DNA of 64,000 nucleotides from Agelas oroides (taxonomy: Eukaryota; Porifera; Demospongiae; Agelasida; Agelasidae), in assembly GCA_949130485.1 (NCBI GenBank), contig OX422185.1:3022304-3086303 (forward strand), in the 5' to 3' direction. Position numbers and translations under genes: made by a program. Position 1 is the stretch's first letter, and every line of letters begins with the position of its first letter. The notes under the pieces were generated by a model. It made no database searches and was not told the DNA's origin. It saw only the letters and a list, made by a program, of their open reading frames with translations. This document shows, piece by piece, positions 34,382 through 61,878 of this stretch.

Positions 34382-34388
34382 AAGCCAT
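34382..34388 (-). other. Orphan first coding exon of the death-domain family
   Basis: ATGGCTT followed by gtgagttgtgtac, preceded by gtttcaagagcaagaagt. It matches the first exons of genes C and D including the flanks, with a T in place of the last G. No death-domain exon lies downstream of it on this strand. Confidence 0.5.
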
Positions 34389-35087
34389 ACTTCTTGCTCT
34401 TGAAACAACACTACACAGTGTACTACCGACAATTGGCAGAGTTGTATCATGGGAGGTGCTATAGCCTCATTTCCACTTCCGTGTATGAGGATGTCCCTGG
34501 GGCTTTTTCATTAATATTTGTCAAGGTGAGTTGCATATCGTAAGTGACGCATTCTAGCTCGTCTTGGCCATGATTGTCTGTGAGTTTAATCTACCATTCT
34601 TCAAGTACAAATTAAATGGTTGGCCTGAAGATGTTCATTTTCTGCTAGTCCTATACTGAAACAACAGAATAGCTGGCAGTCTCCTCAGCTAGCACACAGT
34701 ATATCATGGTCTAATTGCAAGAAGGGATATTTGCTTTGTCCAATCATTGAATCAACCAATCAATCAATCAATCAAATTTTACTTGTGTTACTTGCACACA
34801 CACATACAACCATTATAAGTTTAAGAGTCACGGTTTAGCTACTATACACATCATAAAGTTAATAGTATACACTGAATGTGCAAAAGAAAAGTAGGGATGG
34901 GTAATTCAGTTCATTGTTCAGAGCTAGTGGTTTTGTATTCTGCATGGACCACCTGGAATTCACTAACACACTCAATTCCATTGGCCAAGCCTCATCTCAC
35001 TGAACGGTTTGGGACCCGCAGAACACAGTTAATAAGTCTCTAGCACCTTTTTGCCTTGTGGGGCACATTAACTTTAGCAGGACCATT
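34389..35087. other. Stretch without recognisable gene
   Basis: A short (CAAT)n run lies at about 34744-34775. Sequence near 34471-34520 matches, on the minus strand, the region upstream of the first exons of genes C and D (gaaaaagccccagggac). Confidence 0.4.
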
Positions 35088-35413
35088 TCAGTCAAAGTTA
35101 AGACAGTTACCTTCACCATGACATCTACTGCAGCTATGCTTCTTAATTGTGTCAGGCTTCTTCCAGATGTGCCAGTGAAAAGTGATGCTCTCTGGTTTGA
35201 CATCCTGCTTCCCGCACTTGTAACACTCCGCCGTGTCACACATACGGCATTGTACGGTGTAGTGGCCTCTTCTCCCTTTGGAGTCGCTTCTCGCATTTTG
35301 TTGCACTTCCTACACTTTGACTGTGCATTTTCATCTGGGACTCTTTCCCCCCAACGATGCTTGCAGCAGCTAAATTGGCGGAGGGGGAGACGATTGCGAC
35401 TTCGTTTCGGCAT
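35088..35413 (-). pseudogene. Zinc finger of 3CxxC type, frame-broken
   Basis: The minus strand reads MPKRSRNRLPLRQFSCCKHR and then W, and QSKCRKCNKM, in one frame. The next frame continues with GHYTVQCRMCDTAECYKCGK, KPDTIKKHSCSRCHGEGNC and a stop. Spacing of CxxC pairs and HSCSRC resembles the 3CxxC zinc fingers of ZAR1 and receptor-transporting proteins. The second half is clearly related to the C-terminus of gene D (CDTASCYKCGKWDVKP, HSCNRC). The frame change near 35300 has no GT-AG explanation, so this is probably a broken copy of a gene D-like 3' exon. Confidence 0.5.
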
Positions 35414-35811
35414 CCTTGTTTGAGTTCTTTTTTTGCTGTTTATAGGTTGCCGTAGTTTCAGATCGTAAAACTCTTCCGACTGGATGTACATGAAATGCAA
35501 ATAGCCTATATACAAATTTTGTTTCATTAGACAATACAACCGCATTATATACTGCCGAATAATAAAGATTCGGGGAATGCCAGGGTAATCCCCGCCCTTT
35601 TACATTATTGATACATGAATGTACTTATAAATACTTAACATACCTTCTAGAAAGATCTCTCCAACTTGGATTATTTTGCAATCTTGGTCCACTGTATTGC
35701 ATCAAGTATTCACGGGTTGTGCATTCTTAGGCTGTGTCCTATGCAAGATAGCAGTAGAGTTATGATTCGTAAGATGTTTGTGTAATGAGCTGTTTAACAC
35801 TGCATGCCACA

Positions 35812-36010
35812 GATAAGTAGCTTCACACAATCAATAAGTGATTGCGTAAAGCTACTTATCTGAATAGCTTGCATCACCTGACTTGTTACATCACTAGCTA
35901 GATTCTATAATGTAGCTTCACACAATCAATAAGTGATTGCGTAAAGCTACTTATCTGAATAGCTTGCATCACCTGACTTGTTACATTCACTAGCTAGATT
36001 CTATAATGTA
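35812..36010. repeat. Tandem duplication of about 98 bp inside copy A
   Basis: tagcttcacacaatcaataa...gctagattctataatg occurs twice here and once in copy B (53143-53240), so this duplication came after the segmental one. Each unit holds a hairpin (ataagtagctt / aagctacttat). Confidence 0.8.
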
Positions 36011-36053
36011 GCTATACGATTTTGTATTGATACTTGGAAACAGTCTACATATT

Positions 36054-36350
36054 TCAGGAAGTGAAAAGCTGGCAGTCAGTGGGAATCACCTGCCACTGAG
36101 CTACAACAGCTGGTGTGGATTGCCTTGGCAGCCATTCTGCATGAACTGTCAGAACTCCATTAAATGTTGACTGGAAAATTCTTTCCATCAGAAAAGAATC
36201 CATTCTGAGTGGTTTTCTCTTAGATGCTTGATGTTCTAAGCATTTTGAATGAGAAAACCACTGAGCATTGGGTCTCTCCTGCATGATTTGACCCCTAATG
36301 CAGTCCCGACAGCACATGCTGAATGGTTGCTGGGTATACAAGTGAAGCAT
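36054..36350 (-). CDS. Unidentified 98-residue frame, present in both duplicates
   Basis: Open frame (PFSMCCRDCIRGQI..., ...VVAQWQVIPTDCQLFTS) with no recognised domain. The copy at 53282-53578 differs by one residue. Because the two copies are so similar overall, its openness is only weak evidence for a gene; it may be a terminal exon of a lost family member. Confidence 0.25.
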   Translation of the reverse strand: MLHLYTQQPFSMCCRDCIRGQIMQERPNAQWFSHSKCLEHQASKRKPLRMDSFLMERIFQSTFNGVLTVHAEWLPRQSTPAVVAQWQVIPTDCQLFTS

Positions 36351-36904
36351 TCAGTACAAACTGTGCAGTAACATATAGAGTACTGTGAGGGCTTGTGGTT
36401 GCCAGTAAATTGTCATAGCTCAGAACCAGATTACTGGCAGCTCAAGCCAGGTGTCCTATTTCGATAAATCCCTGGTGACTGCCGGCAGTTCATTTTCATC
36501 TTATAACATTTATTCCATTACCTATATCAGACCACTGAAGTGTTTATTAATACTAACAGTTTGTTGTCTGTTTGTTTTCCATGTGATTTACATCTAGAGT
36601 GTGAGGATGAGAGTATAACTGTGAAACATTCACATGTACCTTGCATAGTGTAAGCTCTGTTGTTGCAACAAAACATGTTAGAAAAGGTTGAGCTCGAGCC
36701 ATAAGCTTCTCAAATACCAAGAATCAATTGCAAAGGCTAAAACTTATCCACATAAATATATACGGGAAGCAGGATATTCAGCATCATTCAGCCATCATTC
36801 AGCATCATTCCAAAAAAAACTTCAAGATAAATAGCAAATTGAATGATTTTGTTGGTATTTGTGTCTGATAGCTAGTGACTACTTCTTGATGCCTACTCAT
36901 AGAG

Positions 36905-37040
36905 TAAGAATATTAGCTCCCAGCTGTGATGCTGTTCAGTGCTAGGCCATGCTCCAGTTTCCACAAGCCCATGCACAGTAGACAGCAGTATATCTAGTAA
37001 TGCAACAACAACTACCACACACGAGATCAAACTCCGAGGA
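36905..37040 (-). pseudogene. Relic of a membrane-hairpin exon (gene E/F family)
   Basis: The minus strand reads ISCVVVVVALLDILLS and resembles ISSVAVAVTLLLLSILDM of gene F. At the DNA level it shares cagctgtgatgct, tgctaggcca and tccagtttccac with the gene E and F exons. No open frame continues on either side. The same relic is at about 54130-54265. Confidence 0.5.
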
Positions 37041-37616
37041 TTCTCATGGATTTACATGTATTTTTTGGTTGCTACAGTCATAGTATGTAAAGTCTCTTAA
37101 GGGACAGTGCATATACAAAAGTGACCCCTATCAAGTAATATGAAAATCGTTACTGGTTGCAGCATGTGAAACATATATAGTCCCCTACAGATGAAACCAA
37201 CGACTACACAGGTTCCTCTTCAACTTTTGTCACATATATTATACCATACAGTGTGCAGCAAACAATGTTGCATGAAGAGAGCTTGGGAACATGGCTATGA
37301 ATCTTAGTGCATAAAATAAGTGCATAAAATAAGTATAAACACATTGAGTTGTTTTAGTGAGCTCACAATAGCTATATACAGAGCACATAATTATTCTTTT
37401 GTATAATCTTCCAAGCCAATTAATTAATGTGACTATCTGCTGGCTAATAGCTATTATCAGCATGCTACTATCCATGAACTGGGTCTTCTTCAATCCAGAC
37501 TTGTTTTTAACATGAAGTAAGCCCACTTGCAATCGAGCTATGTGGATCTGCTCTAGACATTGCAGAGCATTTCAATGTCTGTCACTATAGATGCAGCCAG
37601 AAAGTTTATCTTTAAG
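37041..37616. other. Unique part of copy A without recognisable gene
   Basis: Matches copy B closely; no domain-bearing ORF. Confidence 0.4.
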
Positions 37617-38868
37617 ATCAGTTTCTCATAAGCTCAACTTCATTAGTTTCTCATAAGCTCAGCTTCATTAGTTTCTCATAAGCTCAACTTCATTAGTTTC
37701 TCATAAGCTCAGCTTCATTAGTTTCTCATAAGCTCAGCTTCATCAGTTTCTCATAAGCTCAGCTTCATTAGCTTCTCATAAGCTCAGCTTCATCAGTTTC
37801 TCATAAGCTCAACTTCATTAGCTTCTCATAAGCTCAGCTTCATCAGTTTCTCATAAGCTCAGCTTCATCAGTTTCTCATAAGCTCAGCTTCATCAGTTTC
37901 TCATAAGCTCAGCTTCATCAGTTTCTCATAAGCTCAGCTTCATCAGTTTCTCATAAGCTCAGCTTCATCAGTTTCTCATAAGCTCAGCTTCATCAGTTTC
38001 TCATAAGCTCAGCTTCATCAGTTTCTCATAAGCTCAGCTTCATCAGTTTCTCATAAGCTCAGCTTCATCAGTTTCTCATAAGCTCAGCTTCATCAGTTTC
38101 TCATAAGCTCAGCTTCATCAGTTTCTCATAAGCTCAGCTTCATCAGTTTCTCATAAGCTCAGCTTCATCAGTTTCTCATAAGCTCAGCTTCATCAGTTTC
38201 TCATAAGCTCAGCTTCATCAGTTTCTCATAAGCTCAGCTTCATCAGTTTCTCATAAGCTCAGCTTCATCAGTTTCTCATAAGCTCAGCTTCATCAGTTTC
38301 TCATAAGCTCAGCTTCATCAGTTTCTCATAAGCTCAGCTTCATCAGTTTCTCATAAGCTCAGCTTCATCAGTTTCTCATAAGCTCAGCTTCATCAGTTTC
38401 TCATAAGCTCAGCTTCATCAGTTTCTCATAAGCTCAGCTTCATCAGTTTCTCATAAGCTCAGCTTCATCAGTTTCTCATAAGCTCAGCTTCATCAGTTTC
38501 TCATAAGCTCAGCTTCATCAGTTTCTCATAAGCTCAGCTTCATCAGTTTCTCATAAGCTCAGCTTCATCAGTTTCTCATAAGCTCAGCTTCATCAGTTTC
38601 TCATAAGCTCAGCTTCATCAGTTTCTCATAAGCTCAACTTCATCAGTTTCTCATAAGCTCAACTTCATCAGTTTCTCATAAGCTCAACTTCATCAGTTTC
38701 TCATAAGCTCAGCTTCATCAGTTTCTCATAAGCTCAACTTCATCAGTTTCTCATAAGCTAAACTTCATCAGTTTCTCATAAGCTCAACTTCATTAGTTTC
38801 TCATAAGCTCAGCTTCATCAGTTTCTCATAAGCTCAACTTCATCAGTTTCTCATAAGCTCAACTTCAT
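37617..38868 (+). repeat. 25-bp satellite array, about 50 units
   Basis: Unit gtttctcataagctcagctt plus catca, period exactly 25 bp. Central units are almost all identical; units near both edges vary (cattag, aactt, gcttctc). Each unit holds the near-palindrome aagctcagctt. Copy B has a single unit at 54803-54830. Confidence 0.95.
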
Positions 38869-39384
38869 CTACCTAAAACTTTGAAGTGGCCAGGTTGACC
38901 ACCAACCCATTTTACTGATATATTACACACCTCAAGGCCATGATGGCAGCCCTACAACTATCTTAGTACAACTGCCCAATCCCATATACATCCACAGACT
39001 TATGAACCAATCAGTTAACAGGGATTGCTGTGTGTTCTACATGTTGACCAGAGATGTATAGGCAAGCTAATAACTCTGAGTTCTGAACTAGGTTTCTGAC
39101 ACTATCACCAGCAAAACACATTTCAAGCTAGAAGTGACACAGCATGCATGCTAAGTCCTTTGTATAGTTGTCATATTTGAGAAAACCATGCAGTATACTA
39201 CCTGGCCAATTTTCACAAAGAAAGACAAGGAGGAAGCTGTGTAAAGGCAGCATTTCTCCACAAATATATGCAATATGAATCACTGCCACCAAGCTATAGG
39301 CATACTGTCTACCTAATTTTATAGTATGACTATCAGTATTAGAATATGTTAGAATACTCCTTGTGTACTTCATCAACCTTGTCA

Positions 39385-39900
39385 TCACTTTTTACTAAGT
39401 CTTTCTAATAACCTAAGTCGCTGATCAACAAGATGCTGCATATTTGCATTTAACTTTCCTTGATCATGTACTTTTCTGACTTCTTCAAGATAGTGCATGG
39501 CTTTAGGGTATTGCTTCCATATATATAAGTCACAAAGAGTACAATAGTATAAAAGTTGCCTTATTTCCAGTGACACACTGTTGAGGCATTTCTCTGCCTT
39601 CCTGATATCATCAGGACTGGGCCAGTACTGTTTTGGTTGGAGCTTATCTGTTATCAGTTCTGATCTCAAGTGAAATGATGCTTTCATTGCAAGGAAACTG
39701 TTTTCTCATATTCTTTCATGTACTTTGCATGTTCCAGAAGTAGTTCATACTCTTTTTCAGTTGACTTATACAGCTCGGGAGAAAATGTACCTGTAGGTAC
39801 ACTAAACAGTCTATGTCTTTTCACCAGTAAATCTGTATGAGGTGAAATACTGTTTCATTTGAAAGTGCAGCATTATTAAACCTTCACTTTGCCCATGACG
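39385..39900 (-). pseudogene. Truncated 3' part of a gene E-like copy
   Basis: The frame KASFHLRSELITDKLQPKQYW to LLERLSKK resembles the C-terminal helical region of gene F (KASFHLRSFIIEDKLPPKAL). Upstream it breaks off after matching gene E near 55805. Nothing 5' of that remains here, so this is a truncated relic. Confidence 0.65.
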
Positions 39901-40368
39901 TGTACTCCAATGCCTTATCATCTTTACCTTCCTCCTCCCCCTCCCACAAAAAAAAAAAGAGCTGAAACCCACACCTTTTATCATTGGGCATATTCATTAG
40001 CAAAGCAATGTTCTGAAAATATAGTCATGTTATTTTGTTTTTGCAATGTAATGGTGCAGGCAAGATGTAGGTAAAACATGTTGACTTGCAATTTAACACC
40101 CTTGGGTATATTATATACAGGGTGTGTTTCAAATCTGCTGGATCATGGACAATGGAAATGGAAGGAAGGGGCATGCAAGTGCATGGTTGCAGTGGATTAA
40201 AATGACAGACAACAGTTCTCTTCACTAGTGGGACCCACAACAGTTTGGTGTGTGTATTGCATAGATAACAGTACACCAAACAACAACTGCATAAAAATAC
40301 AGAGACATTGACAAACATTAACAACCCGTATTATAATTAGAACCGATAAAAAAAACTGTAAGGTATAA

Positions 40369-43300
40369 TCATGACTGGATGGTTTCACCAGAAAATTCCT
40401 TGAGTATCTCATCAATTGCCTCATCTTCTTTTTCTTTCTTTTGCATGTCAAGCATTAGACTTTCTAGCAACTGAAGCCTCTCAGTAAATATATCAATACC
40501 AATTTTTATCTTTCCTTCAAGACAAAGTTGTTTGCCCCACTTAGCATGTGCAAAGGCTTCAGAATACTTCTGCTTCCACAAAAACAAGTCACAAAGAGCA
40601 CGATAGTATAGTGCAGCAAATGGATTGACTTGATTTGGCAACATATCCACAGATATCCTATTAAGACATTGTTCTGCTTTCTTAATATCATCTTGACTAG
40701 GCTGCAATGCTTTTGGTGGAAGCTTATCTTCTATTATGAATGATCTCAGGTGAAATGAAGCTTTTTCTGTAAGGAAAAGGAATAAGTCAGGCTTCTCATA
40801 TTCCTCCATGAAATCTGCATGTTCAAGAAGTAAATCGTAATCTCCTTCAATCGACTTGTTCAGATTGCTCGTAGAAAAGCTCACATTTTGCATTCCTTAG
40901 GGGGTACTGAGTATTTTACGCCACTTTGCCATTAATCCTATAAAAAGAACCTGAGCTGTTACCTGTGAAGGTACAGCATTAGCCAATATTTCCCTCGCGG
41001 CTGAGATGTACTTTAATGCTTCATCGTCATTACAGTTGGCATACTGGATGTATCCTAAGTGCTTTAGAATCATTCCTTGTAACAGTACACTATTCTGACA
41101 ATCCAGTCGTGATGCTTTGTTCATAGCAGCTTCAAACAGTTTTTCACTGTCCTTGCAGTGTTCAGGTTCAAGAATCCCAATGAAAGCTTCCCAGCACATA
41201 GCGTCAACATTGATATCTAAACTGATACTGCTAGAGTCTATAATTCTTTTAGCCAGCTGGGGAATCTGCTCATTTTTGGAAGTCAAATACAACTGCTTAA
41301 AATGCTTTTTAATTTTGTGGTATTTTGCAGTTGCTAGGGGTCCAGTATACGTAATGCGGGAAGGCTCTTTCACTCTTACTACTCCATGCTGAGTTCTGGA
41401 GTGGTGCTGATGCTGCTTTCTATCAGTAATTCGGACAACACATGTACATACAGTCTTCAGAATGGTGCATATACTCCACCCCGTCTGAGTCAGCTATGGA
41501 GTAAATTGACAGCCGAATGATGCAAACTGTATCAGGCTGGTGAAAAGAGAAGATAAGTGGTAGCTTGCCTTGCTTGCATGGTTTGCTTTCTATGTGGTAT
41601 AGGGGGTGATGATGAGAACCATGTTCATCACAGTGTTTAACTTGCACTGCTATGTAGCAGAATAATGTCCTGCAACTGACTTCTGGAGGTTTCTCACCAT
41701 GCAACAGTAGTACACAGTCAAGAGGTTGTGTTGCAGCATCCACAATCATCACAATGGGAGAAAACTGTTCATCCATCTTCACTATCAGGTATAGCAAAAA
41801 TTGTTTGCAGAGGTTGATAGTTTGAAACCATTACACGAATGTACTGAGGCAGGCTGAAAATATCGGTAGAATCTTGGCCTTTCTCTGGATGCAGTCTGGA
41901 CTGTTGTTGACTTTCAAGCTTCCTGTGTTTTTTGTCTGTGAGAAAAAGCACCCATCATGATGTTACAACCAGCATACCTCATGATGTTTAATAGTTATCA
42001 AATGCTTAACTTTCGTTTCGTGCTGAGAAGATGGCTTACGAATATGACTACCCCCACCTTACAACTTGACAATGTGATTCTAGTAATTCACGGCAAAACA
42101 GAGAATCCAGAGGAGGTAGTAAGTCATTATGTATACATTGTAGCCTTGTTTCCAGGTCTTCTTCAGCTCCAGTATTTTCAACTCCAGTGTGCATTTGGTT
42201 GCTTTCTACATTTGTGTATTGGCAAATACCGGAGGTGGCAAATGGCCTGGGAATTATGTTGCAAAGGCTAACGAAAAAGTATGTATATCTGTGACCAATA
42301 CCAGAGGTGGCAAAACAACACTAGAATGAAGTTGCAAAGGGATAGGAACAAGGTTAACGAAAAAGTACGTACATGTGACCAATTAACTAGCTCATCTTGA
42401 GAGTATAATACTGGCCTAGTACCAGACTAATGGACATGGTTACCTGGTGCACCAGGGTGTTCTGTTGCTATTTTCTGGGCCAGAGCACAGTTGTTGCCTC
42501 CCACATGGTCCTCCACAGCCTCAACCAGTCTTCTCCACGTAGGCTTCCCAAACCTCTCCACCTATGTAGGGAAATAAAGGAAACGGCAGAGAATAGCCAG
42601 ACACATGTAATATGCAATCCCAGGTCTTATTCGCATTCACTTCATGATGATTAGTTCATTAGTAATCAAACAGGTGGGAAAGGCCTGGAAGCGAGTCCAA
42701 CATGTTGTTACCTAATGTTAAGCATGAACTACATACATTTTAGTGTGACATTACTCCACATCCACATTTGAATTTGGTAGATAGATATAGTGACTAAGGA
42801 AATAATCTCCATGTTAAAAAGCTATGCTCAGTTTTAGTTACTGTGTGGTTAAAGCTGGAGGAGTTTTATTGTTGAGGTGGCCAATGATGTGCCCTTTAGC
42901 CATCTAACTAGTTGACTGTGTGTATTGGGGCAGTATGAGAGTGGTCCTTACATCGTAGTTTTGCTTCAGCCATATTACGAGCGCCTCTCTCAGACAGTCA
43001 CTGGGAGAGTGGGGGTTGGCTAAAAGGATGGCATTTAGTTCACTCAAGCGAAGTCCCAGGGAGATTCCAAGATCCTTCCACCTCGCAGCGAGGTCTGCCA
43101 CTGCTAACCTCACGTCTCGAAGGTCATCCTCATCTGCAAGTTCGAGAACATGATGCACTGCTTACAACTCCGTGTAATATGGCAGTGGTCACTGTTATAG
43201 TCACCATTAAATTTACTTACTTTAGTGGCACTTGTAAATGCATATTGCATTTTAGAAGCCATGTAGCTTGTCTACAAACTAACTAGACATGTGGTATTAA

Positions 43301-44592
43301 ATTGGCAACAAGCTGTAACCAATGCTCAGTTGAGTCCATCTAATAAACTTCCATGCGTTCCAGCTTACTGAGAATAGTAGTACCATCCACACTCTCCCAG
43401 CCTGGACAGGAGAAGAGAAATACCTGTTATAATTTTCTTGTGGCTCACATAGCCCTTATGCAGGCTTCTTCACTCATTTGTAATCAGACAGTCGGTAGAT
43501 TCCTTATGTAGGTATGGCGCAGACACACAATAATATTCCCGTAGATCGGGAAATTTTCACCTTGAAAATAATTCGCGAAAAAAATTAATTTTCGTGGTGT
43601 TAAAATTTCGTGATTCGTTCTATCCGCGAAATTTTGTTGATGGTTGACGATTATAATATGGACGAGCGCCCAGAGCGTTCCGAGCGTTTAGTCTGCTACC
43701 AGGTATCGCTCATAATCGCTGGCTGTAACGCTGTGGCTCTCAGGGGTATGGTCGTCGATCGGACATTTACCTCGGAAGGTGTGGACGTGCGCACACGCTT
43801 ATTAGTTGATCAATGCCGGGTAAATGTTTTTATTAGCATGTTAAATTTTCGCAGTTGATCTCAACCACTAAACATCCGGTCGAGTTGTAGCTAGTGTGCG
43901 GGTGAAGCGTGAGTAAAAGTAGCTGCAAAACAATCGAGTTAGAGGCTTATCGGTTGGATATGTTCCGCGCGTTACCCAAAGAGAAGCTCAAGTGTTTGAC
44001 TGAAAGGCTACGCGGCCCACTTTGACTGTCAGGGGTGGATAGCATCGCAACACAAAGTTCCTCGCGTCAGGAAGGGCCGACAACCGTTCCTATGTAGCTA
44101 GAACTTGCCAGGTATAAGCTTGGAGCGTTCACATCTTGTTGACTACGAGGGTATCACTGCGTTGTGAGGTCGTAGATCGTGGTACTGCGAACCTGTGCGA
44201 AGGTGTGTCTATTTTTAATACACGCGGGAGATTCTGTCTGTTTCGAATTTTTGCCAGTTACACGCTCTTCCTCCTCCCTCCGCAATAAAAATGACGTCAT
44301 CATGCGTTCTCGTTAAGCAAAAGCCATACAACTTGATCACAAACTAACGAGAAAGAAAAATAAACACAAAGTTGTGCCAAAAAGCGTACAAACATGGTTG
44401 GAATCATGAGTGGAGGTTGATATACAGCTTGATCATCTTTTTCCCATTAGCGTAAAATAGGGCTTTATATATTTACCCGCTTCTCATCATACCCTGGTTG
44501 TATACTAGCATGCCACCCTACAACTTTTATTATTAGATTTTACCATCTTACCACCTTCTTAACTACATTTTTGTACACAACTCACCAGCCAT
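40369..44592 (-). pseudogene. Gene C: death-domain gene, broken copy
   Basis: Exons on the minus strand: 44592-44586 (ATGGCTG|gtgagt), 43401-43369 (33 nt), 43133-42952, 42561-42444, and a last exon from 41935. Phases are 1, 1, 0, 1. Exons 3 and 4 encode a death domain (EDDLRDVRLAVADLAARWKD, IWLKQNYD, VERFGKPTWRRLVEAVED). The last exon matches gene F from DKKHRKLE and IFSLPQ through the helical region to EFSGETIQS, but lacks the membrane hairpin. It is broken against gene F by frame changes near 41775 and 41440 and by a stop near 40897 where gene F has Gln (STP* against STPQGMQN). A truncated product of the first exons remains possible. The first four exons look healthy; the last exon does not. 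Confidence 0.7.
43402..44585 (-). other. First intron of gene C
   Basis: No coding signal beyond short frames. Contains repeats of cgcgaaattttc type near 43545-43640. Confidence 0.4.
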
Positions 44593-45415: not shown

Positions 45416-48400
45416 TCAATTAGCTAAGCAGCAGCCAAATAAGTTTGGACAGATCATTGCCCCAAATTTAGGGCATCTATTACAACTGTGTTTATTAAAT
45501 GTGCCAGGTTTCTTCCGAATGTGTTTGCTGAAATAGATCCTCACTGGTTTGACATCCCACTTTCCACACTTGTAGCAACTAGCTGTGTCACACAATTGGC
45601 GTGTTACAGAATAGTAGTTCCCGCATTTGCATTCAAATTTGCATATGCCAACAAATGATTTCTTGGAACTGACTTCTGAAGGCTCACAGAGAGTTTCTTG
45701 TCTTGCAGTATCCACAGAGTACTGAGGAAGACTAAGACGATCAGCTGATTCCCGTCTTTTCTTCGGAGAAAGTCTTGAATGTTGTGGACTTTCAAGCTGC
45801 TCTTGACTAATTACTTTCACGACATATGTATCGTCTGCTGTGGAGTGTATTGACAGCTGAATGTTACAAACAGTACCAGGCTTAAAATGGAAGATACCAA
45901 TTGGGTCAGTTAATTGTTGTCCATTCTCTAGATGTAGTTGCTGATTTCCAAACATCCTGTGTGTTTCACCTGGGAGAAACAGTACATTCCTCATGAATTT
46001 TTTCAGAGAACATTGGCAATAATCATAACTGCATAACATTCTTGAGATAGCTTACAACTGTGACAATACTTACCTGACACAAGTAGTTTACAATCACTAA
46101 ACTGGACAGGTGGACTGGACTGGTTGAATGAAATATTTTTGTACTAAAATACACTTTTATGCTCTCTTGTAGAAAAAAAATGCCAGTCCACTAGTCCAGT
46201 CAAGTCATTATCATGGGCAGAGGACTACAGAAATTGTTCAGGAAATTGACTTCAAAATGCTTTCACTGTGTACAGGATGGAATAACTACTCTGATGCTAG
46301 CCTCAGTTGAGAACCGTGTTGATGTTTTTAAGACACTGTTGACACATGGTCATGCCACAGACTGGGTTTGTTTATTATATCTTATATTGCTTTGAAGAAT
46401 GAGATTGTTACTGGCTTTCAAGCTTCCTGCCTGCGAGAAACGGTACACCTTATGAAACTATGGTAATGCACATGACAAAGAATGTAGTAGAGGTGATGCA
46501 GATAACTTGTAACACATGCTGTAACATAGCATCTAAAAACTACCTCATGAAGCTTCATGTGCATGTACACAAACGATAAACAACTGTTTATCTTCTCCGT
46601 CAGATCTACTAATGTATACTGTAATCCAAATGTAGCCTTGTTCCCAGGCCTTTACTGCCTCCAGTATGTAATTTCACTTCCAGTGACAGTGTGTTTGGTT
46701 GCTTGCAGTATTCGTTTGCATATTAGAAGTGATCAAAAACTGGAGGTTGTGACAAAGCACTAGGAACAAGGCTAAACCAAACGCACATGTTGAAAATTAA
46801 CTAGCTCATAAGGTCTGGTACCAGACTAATGGATATTTTTACCTGGTGTACCAGGGTGCTCTGTTGCTATTTTCTGAGCTAGAGCAGAGTTGTTACCCCC
46901 CACTTTGTCCTCCACAGCTTCAACCAGTCTTCTCCATGTGGGCTTACCAAACCTCTCCACCTAGGAAAATGAAAATAGAGGGAGAGGGGTCAGAGAACAA
47001 CCACAGACGTATATTACATTTTTAGCCCTGTTGTCAGGCCAACCTGCCTATAGGTTTTGGTTATAGCAACCAAAAACATGAGGCCTGAGAATGATTGAGA
47101 CTACGCATAGTATAGCTATCTACCACTTCCTAATGTTAAGCAACAGTTATTCCACTCTATATATATATTCATGTTTCAGTTTTTGAGAGAGTTGGATCAA
47201 AAATTATATTATCCCTTAGTTTGTATGTTGAGTTCATAGTTACAAGCTGTTAATGTGGCCAACAATGACCCTTAATAGTCACCTATATGCAACTATAGTG
47301 GACATTGATTTTAATGGGCAGCATGGGGGTGTAGCCTTGTTCCCAGGCTGTAGGAGAAATGGGAACAAGACTACATGCATGGGGGTGGTCCATACATTGA
47401 AGTTTTGCTTCAGCCACAGTGCGAGCACTTCCCTCAGGCAGTCACTGGGGGAGGGGGTGCTAGGTGAGGGGATGGCATCCGGGTCACTCAAGAGGATTCC
47501 CAGAGAAATTCCAAGGTCCTTCCACCTCCCAGCGAGGTTTGCGACTGCTGACCTCACATCTCGAAGGTCATCTTCACCTGCAATGTAGAAGCACAACTGT
47601 GGTAGTGGACAGTGCCAACAATTTGCCTGTGTCCTGTCACTGTCCACTACAATTTTACACAAGAGCTGCCTGATGTATAAATATTGCACTGACTGGCTCC
47701 AAACAATTCGATGTGAGGCCAAGTTGTGCGGAAGGAAGAACTCTACACATCACCGCTCTGTTGTTTTAAAGACTGGGCTACAACAAACCTACTTATGAAC
47801 AAATTTAGGTGGTTTGTGAGTTTGCATGAGGGAAGGATGTTGGCAGCTCAAGTTTGACGACTGAAATCAGGAAGCTTGCCACTCATTTCACTAGCGACTG
47901 ATGCTTCACTGGTTAGGTAACATTGCTGACTACTTGAAGGTAAGGCTACACAACAAATTGAGCAGCAAATAGAGAACTAGGTCTGATTATTGTATTCTTG
48001 GTACAATGATTATATGTTTGCCGGACACATCTTCATTACAATAAATTCAAATCAAGCCACCAGACGTTCTCTGCCGGGGGAGTGGACGGTTGGGCAGCAC
48101 ACTAGTCATGCACAGCGTGTGACTGGGAAATATTGGCATTTGTACATGTGGAATTCATAAAGAGTTTATCAAAGACATTTAGCTAACACAACAAAAGAGA
48201 ATGTGTATGCAATTTGAGTGGATTGTGACAATCCCAACCCCTCGGGAAAGATTCTGACAGCAAATCCCCCTCCTTTCTCCAACTTTTACCCCAGGTATGG
48301 AAGGTGGGGCATACTATTGATAGGTGCATTAGTAGTCCTAACTACTTATACAACAATTATGCTCATTTATTTTCCTCAAATAAACCATGCATAATTATGT

Positions 48401-50790: not shown

Positions 50791-50794
50791 CGAG

Positions 50795-50980
50795 AGGAAG
50801 ACAGCCATAACAGAAAGATTTTCCACTGCCAGTTGGCAACGACACGAATACATCCTGTCCTCTCAAAAATTCTCTCGCTGCTTCCAGCTGCTCGTCTCGA
50901 ACATCCAGATAACCGAGTCGTCCAAAAGCCTCTCTCACTGCAGACTCAATCTCCGACACACTCCACTCTCTACTCGCCAT
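50795..50980 (-). CDS. RecQ-like helicase N-terminal fragment
   Basis: From ATGGCGAGTAGA the minus strand reads REWSVSEIESAVREAFGRLG, then RDEQLEAAREFLRGQDVF and VSLPTGSGKSFCYGCLPLAF. The first part matches the RecQ Q-motif region and the second its Walker A (PTGSGKS). After that the frame loses family resemblance, so the rest of the helicase (DEAH box and beyond) is absent. It lies wholly inside the TIR element and faces the zinc-binding exon tail to tail. Probably a captured first exon, not a working enzyme. Confidence 0.7.
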
Positions 50981-51207
50981 TTTTTTTCGCCCGTTGACGC
51001 AACACGTGCGATAATTAAGAGGGTGTTATCATAGATAATAGAGTCGACTCTATTATCTATGGTGTTATATAAACGGTAGGTGTCTGACCAATCAAATCGC
51101 TCCGCCGAAATTCCGCGGAGGTACAAAAATGTTGTACTATATTCACCAGACCCCCCTTTCCTCTTGGAGTGTTGAAGGGGGGTCTGGGGACAAGACTATG
51201 TAGAACC

Positions 51208-52225: not shown

Positions 52226-52384
52226 TTAATTTCTTAGCCCCTCAACGTAATTAACAGTCTTCCGAGGGGGGTGTATGCTTATTAAATGGAATAGCCCGTT
52301 GGAGACTGCGCTTGCGAACAGCAGGAGCTGTGTGTTCTCCTCAACAGGTAAGGCAGCTTATAGATTTAGTGATTTTTTACTTTA

Positions 52385-52520
52385 CGTGTAAATGAGAGAG
52401 GGTAGCTTATTGGATATACTGGGATGGGGACAAGGATTGACTCCTGAAAGTGGCCAGATGTGGTAAGAAGTCTCTTGTGTATGAATACAAGAGACTTCTT
52501 ACCACATCTGGCCACTTTTG
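52385..52520 (+). repeat. Repeat copy with hairpin, empty-site partner of 24.5-25.0 kb
   Basis: Contains ggtaagaagtctcttgtgta paired with acaagagacttcttacc (52464-52504), and actcctgaaagtggccag, which in the 24.5 kb copy is interrupted by the TA-flanked MITE. Confidence 0.7.
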
Positions 52521-52552
52521 TCTGCTCCCCAAACCTCCTGGTAGATTGTGAG

Positions 52553-52948: not shown

Positions 52949-53281
52949 GATTGTGAGTGTGGAAAGGAAGGATTTCATAGCACTGATAGGATGCAATGAT
53001 TGCAATCTTGGTCCACTGTATTGCATCAAGTATTCATGGGTTGTGCATTCTTAGGCTGTGTCCTATGCAAGCTAGCAGTAGAGTTATGATGCGTAAGATG
53101 TTTGTGTAATGAGCTGTTTAACACTGCATGCCACAGATAAGTAGCTTCACACAATCAATAAGTGATTGCGTAAAGCTACTTATCTGAATAGCTTGCATCA
53201 CCTGACTTGTTACATCACTAGCTAGATTCTATAATGTAGCTATACGATTTTGTATTGATACTTGGAAACAGTCTACATATT

Positions 53282-53578
53282 TCAGGAAGTGAAAAGCTGG
53301 CAGTCAGTGGGAATCACCTGCCACTGAGCTACAACAGCTGGTGTGGATTGCCTTGGCAGCCACTCTGCATGAACTGTCAGAACTCCATTAAATGTTGACT
53401 GGAAAATTCTTTCCATCAGAAAAGAATCCATTCTGAGTGGTTTTCTCTTAGATGCTTGATGTTCTAAGCATTTTGAATGAGAAAACCACTGAGCATTGGG
53501 TCTCTCCTGCATGATTTGACCCCTAATGCAGTCCCGACAGCACATGCTGAATGGTTGCTGGGTATACAATTGAAGCAT
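53282..53578 (-). CDS. Unidentified 98-residue frame (copy B)
   Basis: Second copy of the frame at 36054-36350, one residue different (MLQLY against MLHLY). No recognised domain; weak evidence for a real gene. Confidence 0.25.
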   Translation of the reverse strand: MLQLYTQQPFSMCCRDCIRGQIMQERPNAQWFSHSKCLEHQASKRKPLRMDSFLMERIFQSTFNGVLTVHAEWLPRQSTPAVVAQWQVIPTDCQLFTS

Positions 53579-54129
53579 TCAGTACAAACTGTGCAGTAAC
53601 ATATAGAGTACTGTGAGGGCTTGTGGTTGTCCAGTAAATTGTCATAGCTCAGAACCAGATTACTGGCAGCTCAAGCCAGGTGTCCTATTTCGATAAATCC
53701 CTGGTGACTGCCAGCAGTTCATTTTCATCTTATAACATTTATTCCATTACCTATATCAGACCACTGAAGTGTTTATTAATACTAACAGTTTGTTGTCTGC
53801 ATGGTTTGTTTTCCATGTGATTTACATCTAGAGTGTGAGGATGAGAGTAACTGTGAAACATTCACATGTACCTTGCATAGTGTAAGCTCTGTTGTTGCAA
53901 CAAAACATGTTAGAAAAGGTTGAGCTCGAGCCATAAGCTTCTCAAATACCAAGAATCAATTGCAAAGGCTAAAACTTATCCACATAAATATATACAGGAA
54001 GCAGGATATTCAGCATCATTCAGCCATCATTCAGCATCATTCCAAAAAAACTTCAAGATAAATAGCAAATTGAATGATTTTGTTGGTATTTGTGTCTGAT
54101 AGCTAGTGACTACTTCTTGATGCCTACTC

Positions 54130-54265
54130 ATAGAGTAAGAATATTAGCTCCCAGCTGTGATGCTGTTCAGTGCTAGGCCATGCTCCAGTTTCCACAAGCC
54201 CATGCACAGTAGACAGCAGTATATCTAGTAATGCAACAACAACTACCACACACGAGATCAAACTC
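54130..54265 (-). pseudogene. Relic of a membrane-hairpin exon (copy B)
   Basis: Duplicate of the relic at 36905-37040; same resemblance to the hairpin exon of genes E and F. Confidence 0.5.
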
Positions 54266-55369
54266 CGAGGATTCTCATGGATTTACATGTATTTTTTGGT
54301 TGCTACAGTCATAGTACGTAAAGTCTCTTAAGGGACAGTGCATATATAAAAGTGACCCCTATCAAGTAATATGAAAATCGTTACTGGTTGCAGCATGTGA
54401 AACATATATAGTCCACTGCAGATGAAACCAACGACTACACAGGTTCCTCTTCAACTTTTGTCACATATATTATACCATACAGTGTGCAGCAAACAATGTT
54501 GCATGAAGAGAGCTTGGGAACATGGCTATGAATCTTAGTGCATAAAATAAGTGACTAAACACATTGAGTTGTTTTAGTGAGCTCACAATAGCTACAGAGC
54601 AGATATTCTTTTGTATACTAGCTAATCTTACAAGCCAAATTAATGTGACTATCTGCTGGCTAATAGCTATATTATCAGTATGCTACTATCCATGAACTGG
54701 GTCTTCTTCAATCCAGACTTGTTTTTAACATGAAGTAAGCCCACTTGCAATCGAGCTATGTGGATTTGCTCTATAGATGCAGCCAGAAAGTTTATCTTTA
54801 TGATCAGTTTCTCATAAACTCAACTTCATCTACCAACTACCCAACCTAAAACTTTGAAGTGGCCAGGTTGACCACCAACCCATTTTACTGCGATATATTA
54901 CACACCTCAGGGCCATGATGGCAACCCTGCAACTATCTTAGTACAACTGACCAATCCCACCATGCAGAGTACGCATCCACAGACTTATGAACCAATCAAT
55001 TAACAGGGATTGCTGTGTGTTCTCTAAATGTTGACCAGAGATGTATAGGCAAGCTAATAACTAGGAGTTCTGAACTATGAGAGGTTTCTGACACTATCAC
55101 CAGCAAAACCCATTTCAAGCTAGAAGTGACTCAGCATGCTAAGTCCTTTGTATAGTTGTCATATTTGAGAAAACCATGCAGTATACTACCTGGCCAATTT
55201 TCACAAAGAAAGACAAGGAGGAAGCTGTGTAAAGGCAGCATTTCTCCACAAATATAGGCAATATGAATCACTGCCACCAAGCTATAGGCATACAGTCTAC
55301 CTAATTTTATAGTATGACTATCAGTATTAGAATATTCCTTGTGTACTTCATCAATCTTGTCATCACTTT

Positions 55370-57400
55370 TTACTAAGGCCTTTTTAATAACCTAAGTCTC
55401 TGATCAACAAGATGCTGCATATTTGCATTTAACTTTCCTTGATCATGTACGTTTTTGGCTTCTTCAAGATAGTGCATGGCTTTAGGGTATTGCTTCCATA
55501 TGTGTAAGTCACAAAGAGTACAATAGTATCGTCCTGTATAAAAGTTGCCTTATTTGGCATTGTATCCAGTGACACACTGTTGAGGCATTTCAGGGCTGGG
55601 CCAGTACTGTTTTGGTGGGGGTTTATCTGTTATCAGTTCTGATCTCAAGTGAAATGATGCTTTCATTGCAAGGAAACTGCAGATGGCAGTTTTCTCATAT
55701 TCTTTCATGTACTTTGCATGTTCCAGAAGTAGTTCATACTCTTTTTCAGTTGCAGCATTATTAAACCTTCACTTTGCCCATGACGTGTACTCCAATGCCT
55801 TATCATCATTACTCTGGACATACTGCATGAATGCCAAGTGCCTTAGAACCCTTCCTTGTAAGAGTAAACCATTTTCACACTCTAGTTTAGATGCTTTCTT
55901 CCAAGCAGATTTGAACAATTTTGGGGGATATTCATAGCTTTCATGAACATACAATGATAAAGCTTCCCAGCACAATGCAAAAACTTTGATGTCAGGAGCG
56001 GTACTTTTTAAAACAATTACTAACTTTGAAAGTTGTTGAATCTGTTCATAATCAGGGGATAGATACAACTTTGTGAACTGTTTTTCAAGCTTGTGGTATT
56101 TAGCAGATAATAAAGGACCAGTATACCTGAGGAGCTGGGGCTCTTTTATCCTTACTTCTGACCACTCAATTGACACTGGCTTTCTGTTGATAATTTGGAC
56201 AATACAATCTTCACAGTTCCACATATACTCAACCCCTTCTGAGTCAACTATGGAATGAATTGAGAGCTGAGTGACACAAATTGTACCAGGCTGGTAGAAA
56301 CAGAAGATAAGTAAGTTTGCCTATATAGCTTGCTTGGTTTGCTTTCTATGTGATACCAAGGGTGGAGAGGAGAATTATGTGTTTGATATTGAACAAATAA
56401 AAGTTTCATCGCTATGTAGCAGAATAATGTCCTGCAATAAAGTGAATTCTGGAGGTTTCTCACCATGTAACAGTAGTATACAGTCAAGAGGTTGTTGTGT
56501 TGCAGTATCCACAATAGTCACAGTACGTGGGAGAAAACTGTTCATCTGTCTTCATCTGTCGTGTGTGACATTCATCTTTGGCTATGGCAAATATTGTTTG
56601 AGGAAGTTGATAGATTGAAACTCTTACTTGAGTGTGCTGAGGAAGGCTAAAAATATCCATAGAATCAATACTTTCTTGTCTTGTCTCTGGACATAGTCTG
56701 GAATGATGTGGACATTTAGGTTTTTCGTGTTTTTCATTTTTGTTTGTACCTATCTGGCTGTGTCACCCAGGACTTCTTGATGACTACTGCAGTAAGTACA
56801 CCAACTGCAGCTGTGATGCTGTACAATGCCAGGTCAAGCTCCAGTTTCCACACACTGTCCACAACTGACAGCAGTAGCAATGCAACACCAACTGCCACAC
56901 ATGCAGAGAAAATGTTGTCAATAATCCAAATGTGCCCTTTGCATACAGAGATGGTTTGTGACTGCTGAATTGACACTGATTCAGGGGATGCATACACGCT
57001 ACTCTATATATCTTGTGCCCATATATGGGAAGCTACTTAGGAATGGGTTAGCAACATGTATATATAATTATTTTGGTTAGTTTCCTCAAGTTACACCACT
57101 GCACTTGTCATAGCACTTGATGTTTCACCCCTATACTTGGTATACAGTTCAATGTTAAACTGCTTCAATGCTAATTAGCTGTGATAAACATTACTGATAT
57201 GCCATGTCAGACTACATTTGATCTACTGTTCAAATTTTGCGACCATCTTCCTCAGCCCTTTACTATACAGTGTCCTTCCATCAGTACATCAATATAGCTT
57301 GCAAACATGTTGCAATGAATTTAGCAATTCAACAGTCCCATGTTACCTGAATATGTCTGTGGAAAGACATACGGCGGAGAGGAGATGATCACTCCATGAA
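55370..57400 (-). pseudogene. Gene E: decayed member of the membrane-hairpin family
   Basis: A 54-nt linker exon (57400-57347, VHGVIISSPPYVFPQTYS) has good splice sites and matches the linker exon of gene F in position and phase. Next comes a hairpin region (VAVGVALLLLSVVDSVWKLE, YSITAAVGVLTAVVI, about 56980-56740), then MDIFSLPQHTQV, then a helical part (KEPQLLRYTGPLLSAKYHK, VQSNDDKALEYTSWA) and a C-terminal remnant near 55370-55680. The frame changes several times between 56700 and 56200 and again near 55770, and part of the helical region is missing. No death-domain exon lies upstream; a SINE is found there instead. Probably a pseudogene. Confidence 0.65.
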
Positions 57401-57624
57401 CTACAGCAATATAAACAATGCATCTGTGATCTAATGCCTAGCTGGATTAATCGCCAATTTAAATGTTTATATTATGCACATGCCATCTGTACTCATTGGA
57501 TTTTGCATCTCAGATCTACCTAGTGTGTATTATGAATACAATTTGATATAGCAAATAATTATGATTTATTATGACTAACCAAAAGTTGCTGACATATGAG
57601 GCAACTATGCAATGTGATATTTAT

Positions 57625-57905
57625 AGGAAGAGGGTTGCTGGTGGCCTATTGCTTAAGGCACTGGGCTGCGGATTGAAAGGTCCAGGGTTTCAGTCCCACA
57701 TGCAGCAGAGATTTATTTTTTCTTCTGGGTGTACTCAGCCCTACCTCAAAAATTGAGTAGAAGGTTTTCCTTCGTGTCCTTTGGAGGGTATGCTAAGCCG
57801 TCGGTCCCGGGGAACTCCTTAAAATTAGCCTAAGTGCTATTTGGGATTTCCCCATTAACTGGGTCTTCCCAGGTAAACCATAACAAAAAAATAATAATAA
57901 AAAAA
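57625..57905 (+). mobile_element. tRNA-derived SINE
   Basis: The head has a pol III A box (tggcctattgcttaagg) and a B box (ggtccagggtttcagtccc) at about 57634-57697, spaced as in a tRNA. The body includes aagccgtcggtcccgggga, and the tail is A-rich (aaaaaaataataataaaaaa). The tRNA part does not fold as a functional tRNA by eye. Confidence 0.75.
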
Positions 57906-57967
57906 AGCTGAAACAATATATCACTGTAGGAAAAATGGTAATGTTGACCCTTCTTGGTTAGCTTAGT

Positions 57968-58024
57968 TCCCCCCCCCCCCCCCCCCCCGCCCTTCTTCCT
58001 CCCCCTCCCACTAAAAAAAAAAAG
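57968..58024. repeat. C-run and A-run next to gene F
   Basis: A run of about 20 C, then ccttcttcctccccctccca and a run of about 11 A. The second half matches 39925-39960, where copy A resumes after its deletion; the C-run is found only here. Confidence 0.8.
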
Positions 58025-58426
58025 AGCTGAAACCCACACCTTTTATCATTGGGCAACTTCATTAGCAAAGCAATGTTCTGAAAATGTAGTCATGTTATTT
58101 TGTTTTTGCAATGTAATGGTGCAGGCAAGATGTAGGTAAAACATGTTGACTTGCAATTTAACACCCTTGGGTATATTATATACAGTTCAAATCTGCTGGA
58201 TCATGGACAATGGAAATCGAAGGAAGGGGCGGGCATGCAAGTGGTTGCAATGGATTAAAATGACAGACAACAGTTCTCTTCACTAGTGGGACCCACAACA
58301 GTTTGATGCGTGTATTGCATAGATAACAGTACACCAACCAACAACTGCATAAAAATACAGAGACATTGACAAACATTAACAACCGGTATTATCATTAGAA
58401 CCGATAAAAAAAACTGTAAGGTATAA

Positions 58427-61400
58427 TCATGACTGGATGGTTTCACCAGAAAATTCCTTGAGTATCTCATCAATTGCCTCATCTTCTTTTTCTTTCTTTT
58501 GCGTGTCGAGCATTAGACTTTCTAGCAACTGAAGCCTCTGAGTAAATATATCAATACCAATTTGTATCTTTCCTTCAAGACAAAGTTGTTTGCCCCACTT
58601 AGCATGTGCAAAAGCTTCAGAATACTTCTGCTTCCACAAAAACAAGTCACAAAGAGCACAATAGTATAGTGCAGCAAATGGATTGACTTGATTTGGCAAC
58701 ATATCCACAGATATCCTATTAAGACATTGTTCTGCTTTCTTAATATCGTCTTGACTAGGCTGCAATGCTTTTGGTGGAAGCTTATCTTCTATTATGAATG
58801 ATCTCAGGTGAAATGAAGCTTTTTCTGTAAGGAAAAGGAATAAGTCAGGCTGCTCATATTCCTCCATGAAATCTGCATGTTCAAGAAGTAAATCGTAATC
58901 TCCTTCAATCGACTTGTTCAGACTGCTCGTAGAAAAGCTCACATTTTGCATTCCTTGGGGTGTACTGAGTATTTTACGCCACTTTGCCATTAATCCTATA
59001 AAAAGAACCTGAGCTGTAATCTGTGAAGGTTCAGCGTTAGCCAATATTTCCCTTGCAGCTGAGATGTACTTTAATGCTTCATCGTCATGACCCTGGACGT
59101 ACTGCATACATCTCAAGTGTTTAAGGATCATTCCTTGTAACAACATACCATTTTGGCAATCCGACTGCAATGTTTCATTCAAAGCCGCTTGGAACAGTTT
59201 TTCACAACACTTGAACTCTTTAGGCTGTAGAATCCAAATGGAAGCTTCCCAGCATTTAGTTTTGATATCCAAATTGATACTTTGGCAGTCTATAATTCTT
59301 TTAGCCAGCTGGGGAATCTGATTTTTTTTGCAATGCAAATATAACTTCTTAAAGAGTTGTGTGAGATTGTCATACTGTCTAGTTGCTAGTCCACCAGTGA
59401 ACCTAACAAGAGGATGCTCTTTCACTCTTTCTGCTCCAGAGTAGGATTGATACTGGCTTCTGTCAATGATTCCCACAAAACATGTACAGTCAGCAGAGTG
59501 GTGAACATACTCAACCTCTTCTGAGTCCGCTATGGAGTGAACTGACAGGTGAATGACACAAACTGTACCAGGTTTGTGAAAAGAGAAGACAAGTGGTAGT
59601 TTGCCTTGCTTACATGGTTTGCTCTCCATGTGATATGGAGGATAAAAAAGTAAACCATGTCCATTACAAGATGAAACTTGAACTGCTATATAGCAGAATA
59701 ATGTCCTGCAATTGACTTCTAGAGGTTTCTCATCATGCAACAGTAGTACACAGTCGAGGGTTCGTTGTGTTCCGGCATCTACAATAGTCACAATGGGAGA
59801 AAACTGTTCATCTGGCCTTATCTCTCGTACATGAAATCCTTTCGGCATGGCAAATAGTTTTTGCAGAGGCTGATAGTTTGAAACCATTACCTGAAGGTTC
59901 TGAGGAAGGCTAAAAATATCCCTGGAATCATTTGATCCATGTCTTCTCTCAAATTGTCTTGAATGTAATGGTCTTTCAAGTTTCCTGTGGCTTTTGTCTC
60001 TATTTCTATCTGGCATTGACCTCTGTGTCACCAAGTACTTCTCAGTGATGACTAGTGCTAGAGTAAGTACAGCAACCGCAGCTGTGATACTGTATGGTGC
60101 TAGGCCAAGGTCCAGCTTCCACATGTCCAAAATAGACAACAGTAGCAATGTAACAGCGACTGCTACACTTGAGATCACTGAACCTTTCCCTAGAAAAGTA
60201 GCATGTGCCTTGTAAATTCTTGCCTTTGAAATAATTACACAACAATGCTTGTTGCATTTAGAAATGGTCTAAAATATACACATGCGTTGTTTCATATTTA
60301 CCCCCAATGCTAACATATACTGATACCATACTGTTCAGTGACAATGGTTCATTGCATTGCTGTGATGGTTATAGGTGGTAAAAATGACTGATATGGCAGA
60401 TTGTCATTGACACACAATCCAAGCTATTCAAAATCTTTCCCATGGTCTCTTGTTACTTTACTCAGTCATTCACTGCTAACACTGCATTAGCATCTCAACA
60501 ATCAAGACAACTTGCTTCTATGCTTGTTACCTGAGTTTGTCTGTTGAAGGGGAGAGGTGATCACCTCATAAAATTCACCAGATTGCAGAGAAGGTGGAGG
60601 AGGGGACAGGTACTCTGAGATGGTTGAGGAGGGAGGGTGATGACCTACCAAGAGATGACTAGCAGCTACTATACATGTGCATCTGATTAATATGCTTTTC
60701 AGCAGCAGGGAATGAGGTAGCTACATATTCCAACTAGGTATATGCTGCTGAGTTAACAATTGATAGATTACATAGACATACAGGTAGAGGTGAATTACAA
60801 GTATGTTTCGCTCAGCTAAATGTAGTCTGCATTTTGGTGTGAGACTATATCGGCAACAATTGAGGTCTGCCACTGTGCTTGTCCAGTGCTCATATATAGC
60901 TACGTAGGTCGTACAAGCAACCATTGAATTGTTCACAATGTTCAAACATTGGAAGGCATAGTTGAGTCAGAAGTGGTTATGCATGATTTACTAGGCCACA
61001 AATACACCTGTCATTATTGCCCTTCCTTATATATCGCCTGACAGCCATACAAACCAAGGCATCACTCAAATTTTGAAATGTGCTACTTCCTGGGAAGAAG
61101 ACTAAAGCCCTAGAGCTGCACATGAAATTGTGCTCATGATCATGACAAGTACTTAGACTTACAGCCTAGATAATACTACAGAGACAAATAGAGTCTATAA
61201 CTAAGTTGACCCATGTCTAGTGTAAGCAAAGAAGGTAGTCAGCTTTTCAAGGCAGGACGTTTATATGATTCTGTACTTTTTAGCAAAACTTTTTCATGCA
61301 ACAGTCATCGTACATTGGGTCAGGCTCTTGATGCTTTCCATCTCTAGCTTTAGCATGTTCCTAAGGCTTGCTCCCCATGTATACAGCTCTTCTATAATTC

Positions 61401-61878
61401 TAAATGCGGATAGCATTGTGCTCAAGCAGTTGCTCATTGGGTAAATTTCAAAGCTCTTTTCCAAGTCACTTCAGGCATGGTTTCCGATTTTGTTCTATTC
61501 CATTTCATTTTGTTTCACTGCTACAGTTGAGTGGTGCCTTTGATTTGTATGATTGCAAGGCTACAAGTACTATAGGCATACCTCCAGCTTGATGCCTCCT
61601 AGCTATGTCTCTTGCTTGTGCCATGTTTGCTCCACCTGCAGGGTCACTCACTGCCTCTACGAACCATCGCCATGTTGGTTCACCAAACCTTTTCACATTG
61701 TAGTTCCTATTTAGCCACTCAGTTACCACCAAATTCAGGCAAGCAGTAGGGTCGCCATTCTTGCATGTGTTAATGCCATCCAAGATGTTAGTTTTTAGTC
61801 TCAGAGCAATACCAATGCTCCTCCATTTTGCAGAAACTGGGCTTAGTTCCTTTCGCACATCAAAGAGGTCATCAAGAT
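58427..61878 (-). CDS. Gene F: death domain, membrane hairpin and helical repeat protein
   Basis: Minus-strand exons 61878-61582 (297 nt, same length as in gene A), 60644-60531 (114 nt) and 60189-58427, with phases 1, 1 throughout. The first coding exon was not found. Exon 1 shown is a death domain (DDLFDVRKELSPVSAKWRSI, FGEPTWRWFVEAV). Exon 2 is a proline-rich linker (YLSPPPPSLQSGEF). Exon 3 opens with two hydrophobic segments (SSVAVAVTLLLLSIL and YSITAAVAVLTLALVI) that could form a membrane hairpin. Then come a basic stretch, a beta-like segment (FHKPGTVCVIHLSVHSIADS) and about 330 residues of helical, TPR-like sequence (DDEALKYISAAREILANAEP, LYYCALCDLFLWKQKYSEAF) ending EFSGETIQS. About 724 residues are visible. 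A membrane-anchored death-domain scaffold is the best guess; the long part matches no family I can name. Confidence 0.72.
60190..60530 (-). other. Intron of gene F
   Basis: No coding signal; donor at 60530 (cag|gtaaca) and acceptor at 60190 (ttttctag). Confidence 0.55.
60645..61581 (-). other. Intron of gene F
   Basis: No domain-bearing frame. Donor gag|gtatgc at 61581, acceptor cttggtag at 60645. Confidence 0.5.

Follow-up and report, generated by a model that had tools for sequence, protein, structure and literature searches.

This analysis revealed, in a 64,000-nucleotide stretch of the Agelas oroides contig OX422185.1 (hereafter the window), what we read with a probability of roughly 0.7 as a tandem family of adaptor-like genes with death domains, evolving by birth and death and remade by duplication and by recombination between neighbours. 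This reading draws on observed modules, open frames and intron phases, a tandem duplication, and a mosaic break in one gene, C. A related module of about 100 residues was found at four minus-strand loci, referred to as B, C, D and F (Table 1). Over this module, B, C and D are 71, 44 and 42% identical to F, respectively, and the copy in F was matched by that in C at an E-value (E) of 1e-24 in a tblastn search within the window. The tails, in contrast, differ: F has a proline-rich part, two hydrophobic helices, and beta and helical parts, D has a zinc module, and B has Kelch repeats that pass the Pfam cut-off (Kelch_6, 72.7 bits versus 25.3, in four stretches). The longest stop-to-stop frame of F is 613 aa; in a chance control of 20 random 64-kb windows generated by a first-order Markov model, the longest frame was 271 aa (mean 172).

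An earlier, sequence-only reading had described C, D, F and a relic, E, as a tandem array in which the death domain is kept and its partner changes. The death-domain exons of C, D and F were indeed recovered, and both D and F are open and carry different tails. As had been proposed, D joins the module to a zinc finger, which lies in exon 5 of a gene of 297 open codons, and F joins it to a putative membrane hairpin and a helical region, with two hydropathy peaks (2.3 and 2.1) corresponding to two hydrophobic helices and further helices predicted with low confidence. However, no death domain was found in E or in its shortened copy, E' (tblastn within the window), C meets its first stop after 168 codons (death domain plus linker), and a fourth gene, B, lies outside the span considered.

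Identity of the shared module

By sequence alone, the case for a death domain is thin. The sequence-only reading had proposed a comparison with the hidden Markov model of Pfam Death (PF00531), and the outcome was weak yet not at noise level: one of the four copies, that of C, was matched (19.9 bits, E 8e-4), short of the curated cut-off of 22.6. This result is backed by fold comparison. The predicted model of the F module (mean predicted local distance difference test, pLDDT, of 67, from six alignment rows) has five helices of at least four residues, the first one being long. The best 25 of its 47 Foldseek matches are chains bearing a death domain, and the top five are Fas/FADD structures, with template modelling (TM) scores normalized to the query of 0.67-0.77. 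The likeness to FADD is one of fold, since the identity in those five matches is 14-18%, and the tails of the cluster are different.

The module also appears to have been maintained. For the pair F and B, the ratio of nonsynonymous to synonymous substitution rates (dN/dS) is 0.21, and for the pair C and D it is 0.28, which indicates constraint for much of the history of the module. Of 11 comparisons, these two were relied on; that of F with C was saturated, and those of D with the zinc relic and of E' with E (dN 0.80) were set aside as read in a wrong frame. With regard to the other parts, dN/dS was 0.40 for the beta part of C and F, 0.20 for E and F (synonymous rate, dS, 2.2) and 0.39 for E' and F. 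For C and F it was 0.35 before the break in C described below, and 0.16 and 0.48 after it, where there are few changes.

Several results weigh against this reading. Even at E up to 10, no match to Pfam Death was obtained for B, D or F. When the PDB was searched with a profile built from all four copies, six sequences were returned: FADD came at E 0.43, below four CLK2 kinases (E 0.06-0.11), and the sixth was a fimbrial protein (0.65). The CLK2 matches were judged to be chance ones and rejected because they are short and lie inside a kinase. The second half of the F module was modelled at a pLDDT of about 50, and the Foldseek E-values are weak, the best being 0.10 and none reaching 0.001. Finally, the model of the F tail has a mean pLDDT of 45 and is usable at about residues 451-580 only (block means 62-91). 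Taking both sides together, we take the module of B, C, D and F as a divergent death domain. Relatives of it were sought in prokaryote genomes (56 pattern matches) and in viral contigs (211), and none was confirmed in either set.

Given that the tail model is poor, the labels "beta" and "TPR-like" used for the F tail are tentative. For the fold of F, seven of ten alignment rows were used, the badly aligned ones being left out. Secondary structure prediction placed helices at tail residues 3-25 and 33-57, strands within 133-240 and helices at 268-581. Among the best Foldseek matches of the tail, TPR/14-3-3-type helical proteins (LGN, KLC1, 14-3-3) are weakly alike (best E 0.01), with PI3K chains in between at low probability. 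The helical part of C was matched by TPR_2 at E 0.29 (11.8 bits; cut-off of 27 not reached), F had no match to Pfam TPR, and a profile of the F tail had none in the PDB at E up to 10. No Pfam match to TRADD-N was obtained in the tails scanned, the beta part of F being modelled too poorly for comparison, and an NCBIfam scan of five proteins gave no match.

Probable recombination between neighbouring genes

The evidence for exchange comes from C, whose head corresponds to that of D exon for exon. When C and F were compared from the beta part to past the gene end (1805 columns), identity was 77.5% before position 41031 (712 columns) and 96.8% after it (1093 columns). A break at this place gains 83.8 units of log-likelihood, whereas 500 shuffles gained at most 9.4. 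The break sits inside the last exon of C, and high identity continues from it through a duplicated block, at 95.8% in the 3' flank, 97.0% in the E tail and 98.8% in the block tail. Self-comparison of the window revealed the corresponding tandem duplication, pieces of 35676-41773 being 88-99% identical to pieces of 53000-59812. There is one sharp break, and the copied stretch beyond it is long. Since this pattern is more readily explained by unequal crossing-over or break-induced copying than by a short tract of gene conversion, we infer that one of the former two processes joined C to F-type sequence.

The two blocks are not identical in content. Block 1 lacks part of E, its copy E' being 94% identical to E at the DNA level, and contains an array of 50 copies of a 25-bp minisatellite (37617-38869); at the matching place in block 2, Tandem Repeats Finder detected no repeat. 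Two faint matches to the membrane exon (54153-54212 and 36922-36981, E 0.07 each), weak when taken alone, lie one in each copy of the block.

C itself is broken. It has the linker, beta and helical parts and, as the sequence-only reading had noted, no membrane part, but the frame is not intact. Relative to F, it carries a deletion near 41.78 kb and a 4-bp duplication near 41.45 kb, both before the break, and an in-frame stop at 40897-40899, after the break; the lesions before the break may be older than the exchange. A hidden intron of 70 nt was considered and rejected as a remedy: the frame would then reach 260 codons before ending close to the following lesion, which leaves C broken with or without it. 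As it stands, C could be the source of a predicted protein consisting of the death domain and the linker.

The intron phases have to be weighed against this mosaic. The sequence-only reading held that module borders are all in phase 1, so that modules could be swapped without breaking the frame, and saw in the cluster a nursery of domain shuffling. All seven death-domain borders that are certain are indeed in phase 1 (entry and exit in each of B, C and D, and the exit in F), and the entry in F is either in phase 1 or inside a start exon. Nevertheless, a phase-0 intron splits the death domain of C and of D, which lies in one exon in F and B, and the last two introns of B are in phase 0. Active shuffling, in which death-domain and tail cassettes are traded via phase-1 introns, would also account for the symmetrical 1-1 units, namely the death domain, the 33-nt exon of C and D and the proline-rich exon of F. 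It would agree as well with the phase-1 intron before the linker of C and D. This intron falls within a codon that the membrane exon of F reads through, and must therefore have been lost or gained there. We nevertheless consider such shuffling unlikely. The sole exchange that can be dated, that of C and F, breaks inside an exon, and the zinc module of D shares one exon with the linker, with no intron ahead of it in the model. Only one tail difference, the membrane and proline-rich part of F as compared with C and D, coincides with a phase-1 border. Descent from a common ancestor is the simplest account of the shared phases, which, if so inherited, provide no independent evidence for exon swapping. 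Given that C and E have decayed, the proposed nursery is better read as birth-and-death.

It is very improbable that our models wrongly join death-domain exons to tails belonging to other genes. In favour of this view, the links are predicted from gene models, introns of 0.3-1.0 kb separate the two parts, and no separate first exon was found for F, whose 718 open codons presuppose that translation begins within the death-domain exon. Against this, GT-AG borders with matching phases yield unbroken frames of 297, 503 and 718 codons in D, B and F, and C and D retain the same order of five exons although their introns are mostly unlike. That the cluster is mostly dead duplication debris without a working gene, as the broken C, E, E' and zinc relic and the transposable-element genes in the window might suggest, is the least likely reading, since B, D and F are open across all modelled exons and the death domain shows a dN/dS of 0.21-0.28.

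In the family of tandem genes that we favour, duplication of neighbours would have been followed by recombination in which the death-domain head was kept and the tail changed. The head would join other death-domain proteins in signalling complexes, and the tail would pick the place or the target. F would reside at the membrane via its helix hairpin, with both ends cytosolic, and its helical (TPR-like) part would serve as a platform. D would be soluble, its Shiftless-like zinc module binding RNA or ribosomes, whereas B would bind targets by its Kelch propeller. The death-domain-plus-linker protein of C is a possible decoy. A role as signalling or immune adaptors, proposed earlier, is a reasonable inference about function.

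The zinc tail of D

The tail of D is probably Shiftless-like. A zinc relic in the same cluster resembles the zinc module of D (48 residues, 62.5% identity, E 5e-17), and its upstream half matches Pfam UPF0515, which we take to be the Shiftless family (E 4.3e-5, 23.5 bits; cut-off of 29.8 not reached). Shuffle tests were performed against the Shiftless stretch of the match to PDB chain 9kbo. The first half of the relic scored 96, which was reached by none of 2000 cysteine-fixed shuffles (maximum 63), and the D module scored 60, which was reached by one of 2000 cysteine-fixed and by none of 2000 full shuffles. When a two-row profile was used (hhalign), the D module and Shiftless shared 32% identity in an alignment of 56 columns, with a probability of 66% and an E of 5.6e-5 that holds for this single comparison.

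In the numbering of Shiftless (SHFL, UPF0515, C19orf66), the relic half corresponds to residues 108-143, which include the zinc ribbon (112-135), and the D module corresponds to residues 149-206, overlapping the domain for -1 frameshifting (-1PRF, 164-199), these domain limits being those in the part of PMC9230503 covered. The likeness extends to part of Shiftless: the first zinc ribbon was not seen in D, which carries a death domain in its place, and the first cysteine pair of the relic is adjacent, whereas two residues lie between these cysteines in Shiftless.

A generic zinc finger unrelated to Shiftless, for example of the 3CxxC kind, is a somewhat doubtful alternative for this tail. It would explain why D alone finds neither Shiftless (phmmer, E up to 10) nor UPF0515 (Pfam), and why the second half of the relic performs no better than shuffles against Shiftless (score 40, reached by 286 of 2000, not significant). 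Similarly, when the joined relic was searched against the PDB, the Shiftless chain was the weaker of two matches (E 0.034 for the whole sequence, best stretch 0.31, with high composition bias), the stronger being a zinc finger protein (0.012). On the other hand, no other Pfam zinc family matched the D module or the relic pieces at E up to 10, and the UPF0515 match and the shuffle scores of the first relic half and the D module also count against a generic finger.

A more far-reaching proposal, which we regard as distinctly unlikely, is that an early-branching animal fused a death-domain head to a Shiftless zinc module acting on ribosomes or RNA. Sensing of frameshifting or of viral RNA would then feed into death-domain signalling, and the relic would be the remnant of a more complete gene or tail of the Shiftless kind that supplied the D module. 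No link between Shiftless and death domains was found among the papers listed in the open-licence literature searched, and none of the Shiftless papers listed names invertebrates in its title; one Shiftless phylogeny, in the part of the source covered, comprises 15 species, with frog as the distant one (PMC10433982).

Surroundings, precedents and meaning

The content of the window is animal-like, with intron-bearing genes, Kelch and death-domain modules, and reverse transcriptase and transposase genes; Rfam and tRNA scans of it gave no match. Two minus-strand frames at 763-2346, with Phage_integrase (E 1e-4) and Dam (E 3e-6) matches that are both under the cut-off, presumably belong to a tyrosine-recombinase retroelement; the frame beside them (2347-3147) had no domain match. 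A LINE-type element lies at 28813-32349 on the plus strand, with a PHD-like frame (E 3e-4) and an endonuclease (E 3e-5), both under the cut-off, and RVT_1 (E 5e-36). A second endonuclease frame was found at 8216-8785, a transposase frame of the MULE/ZSWIM type that contains an ALS2CR8 domain (E 4e-28) at 23288-24427 (plus), and a helicase fragment (DEAD, E 2e-5, just under the cut-off) at 50654-51025 (minus). The lone copy of the first exon of C and D listed in Table 1 suggests another family member, lost or distant.

Table 1. Positions, within the window, of the death-domain genes, their relics and the duplicated blocks (DD, death domain).
Feature	Position	Strand	Remarks
Gene F	58427-61891	minus	718 aa, open frame, GT-AG borders
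F DD exon	61891-61582	minus	putative start codon
F DD	61582-61878	minus	one exon
F Pro-rich exon	60614-60531	minus	84 nt, 1-1
F last exon	60189-58427	minus	two hydrophobic helices, linker, beta-rich part, helical part
Gene D	45416-49013	minus	297 aa, open
D exon 1	49013-49007	minus	7 nt
D exon 2	48453-48421	minus	33 nt
D DD	47577-47396 + 46960-46843	minus	two exons
D exon 5	45969-45416	minus	linker, short beta piece, zinc module
D zinc module	45416-45655	minus	resembles Shiftless residues 149-206
Gene B	10822-15285	minus	503 aa, open; outside the span first considered
B exon 1	15285-15276	minus	10 nt
B DD	14786-14490	minus	one exon
B Pro-rich/PPTY + coiled coil	13730-13543 and 13445-13362	minus	two exons
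B Kelch part	11754-10822	minus	
C	40369-44592	minus	mosaic and broken
C exon 1	44592-44586	minus	
C exon 2	43401-43369	minus	33 nt
C DD	43133-42952 + 42561-42444	minus	two exons
C last exon	starts at 41935	minus	linker, beta, helical part; no membrane exon
C/F mosaic break point	41022-41034 (support interval)	minus	best 41031 = F 59089
Duplicated block 1	35676-41031	minus	3' part of C, E', tail
Duplicated block 2	53000-59089	minus	3' part of F, E, tail
E	55131-57003	minus	F-type relic: membrane exon, linker, beta and helical pieces; frame breaks, stops
E'	39351-39931	minus	shortened copy of E in block 1
Zinc relic	35110-35420	minus	halves in different frames; first like Shiftless zinc ribbon, second like D zinc module
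Lone copy of C/D first exon	34382-34388	minus	followed by donor-like site

The principle of a constant death-domain head with a variable tail is known from sponges, as far as the parts of the sources covered here go. Amphimedon has 357 proteins of a single TRADD-N clade whose C-termini vary, most types having Death-like heads and up to half showing unique architectures (PMC8195603). The present cluster resembles these and other marine-animal expansions of Death-like and TRADD-N proteins in its constant Death-like head, fast-changing C-terminal partner and many copies, and differs from them in that no TRADD-N domain was identified. The partners reported there (ankyrin, SH3-LRR, kinase, MATH, SH2, PDZ, caspase, PNPase, HD) include no Shiftless-like module in the section covered. 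A further sponge, Dysidea avara, has 128 DEATH genes (PMC12909245), and in two sponges DEATH-domain genes respond to microbial signals (PMC6208332). Hybrid innate-immunity genes of amphioxus likewise contain new death-domain combinations, ascribed to domain shuffling, with NACHT and caspase partners instead (PMC2575513). Like the genes studied here, the Sp185/333 genes of sea urchin form tandem clusters that contain segmental duplications and short repeats and for which unequal crossing-over is proposed; the urchin clusters are, however, almost free of pseudogenes, whereas several copies are broken here (PMC5103432).

Within the open-licence literature searched, the break in the C/F chimera and a death domain with a Shiftless-like tail are new. 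If the likeness to Shiftless is true, an apparent invertebrate has a death domain linked to a relative of an antiviral protein that was described in vertebrates as an inhibitor of frameshifting. One stretch of DNA shows a family with a fixed death-domain head gaining tails, and it suggests that this involves recombination within exons between neighbours, beyond clean exon swaps.

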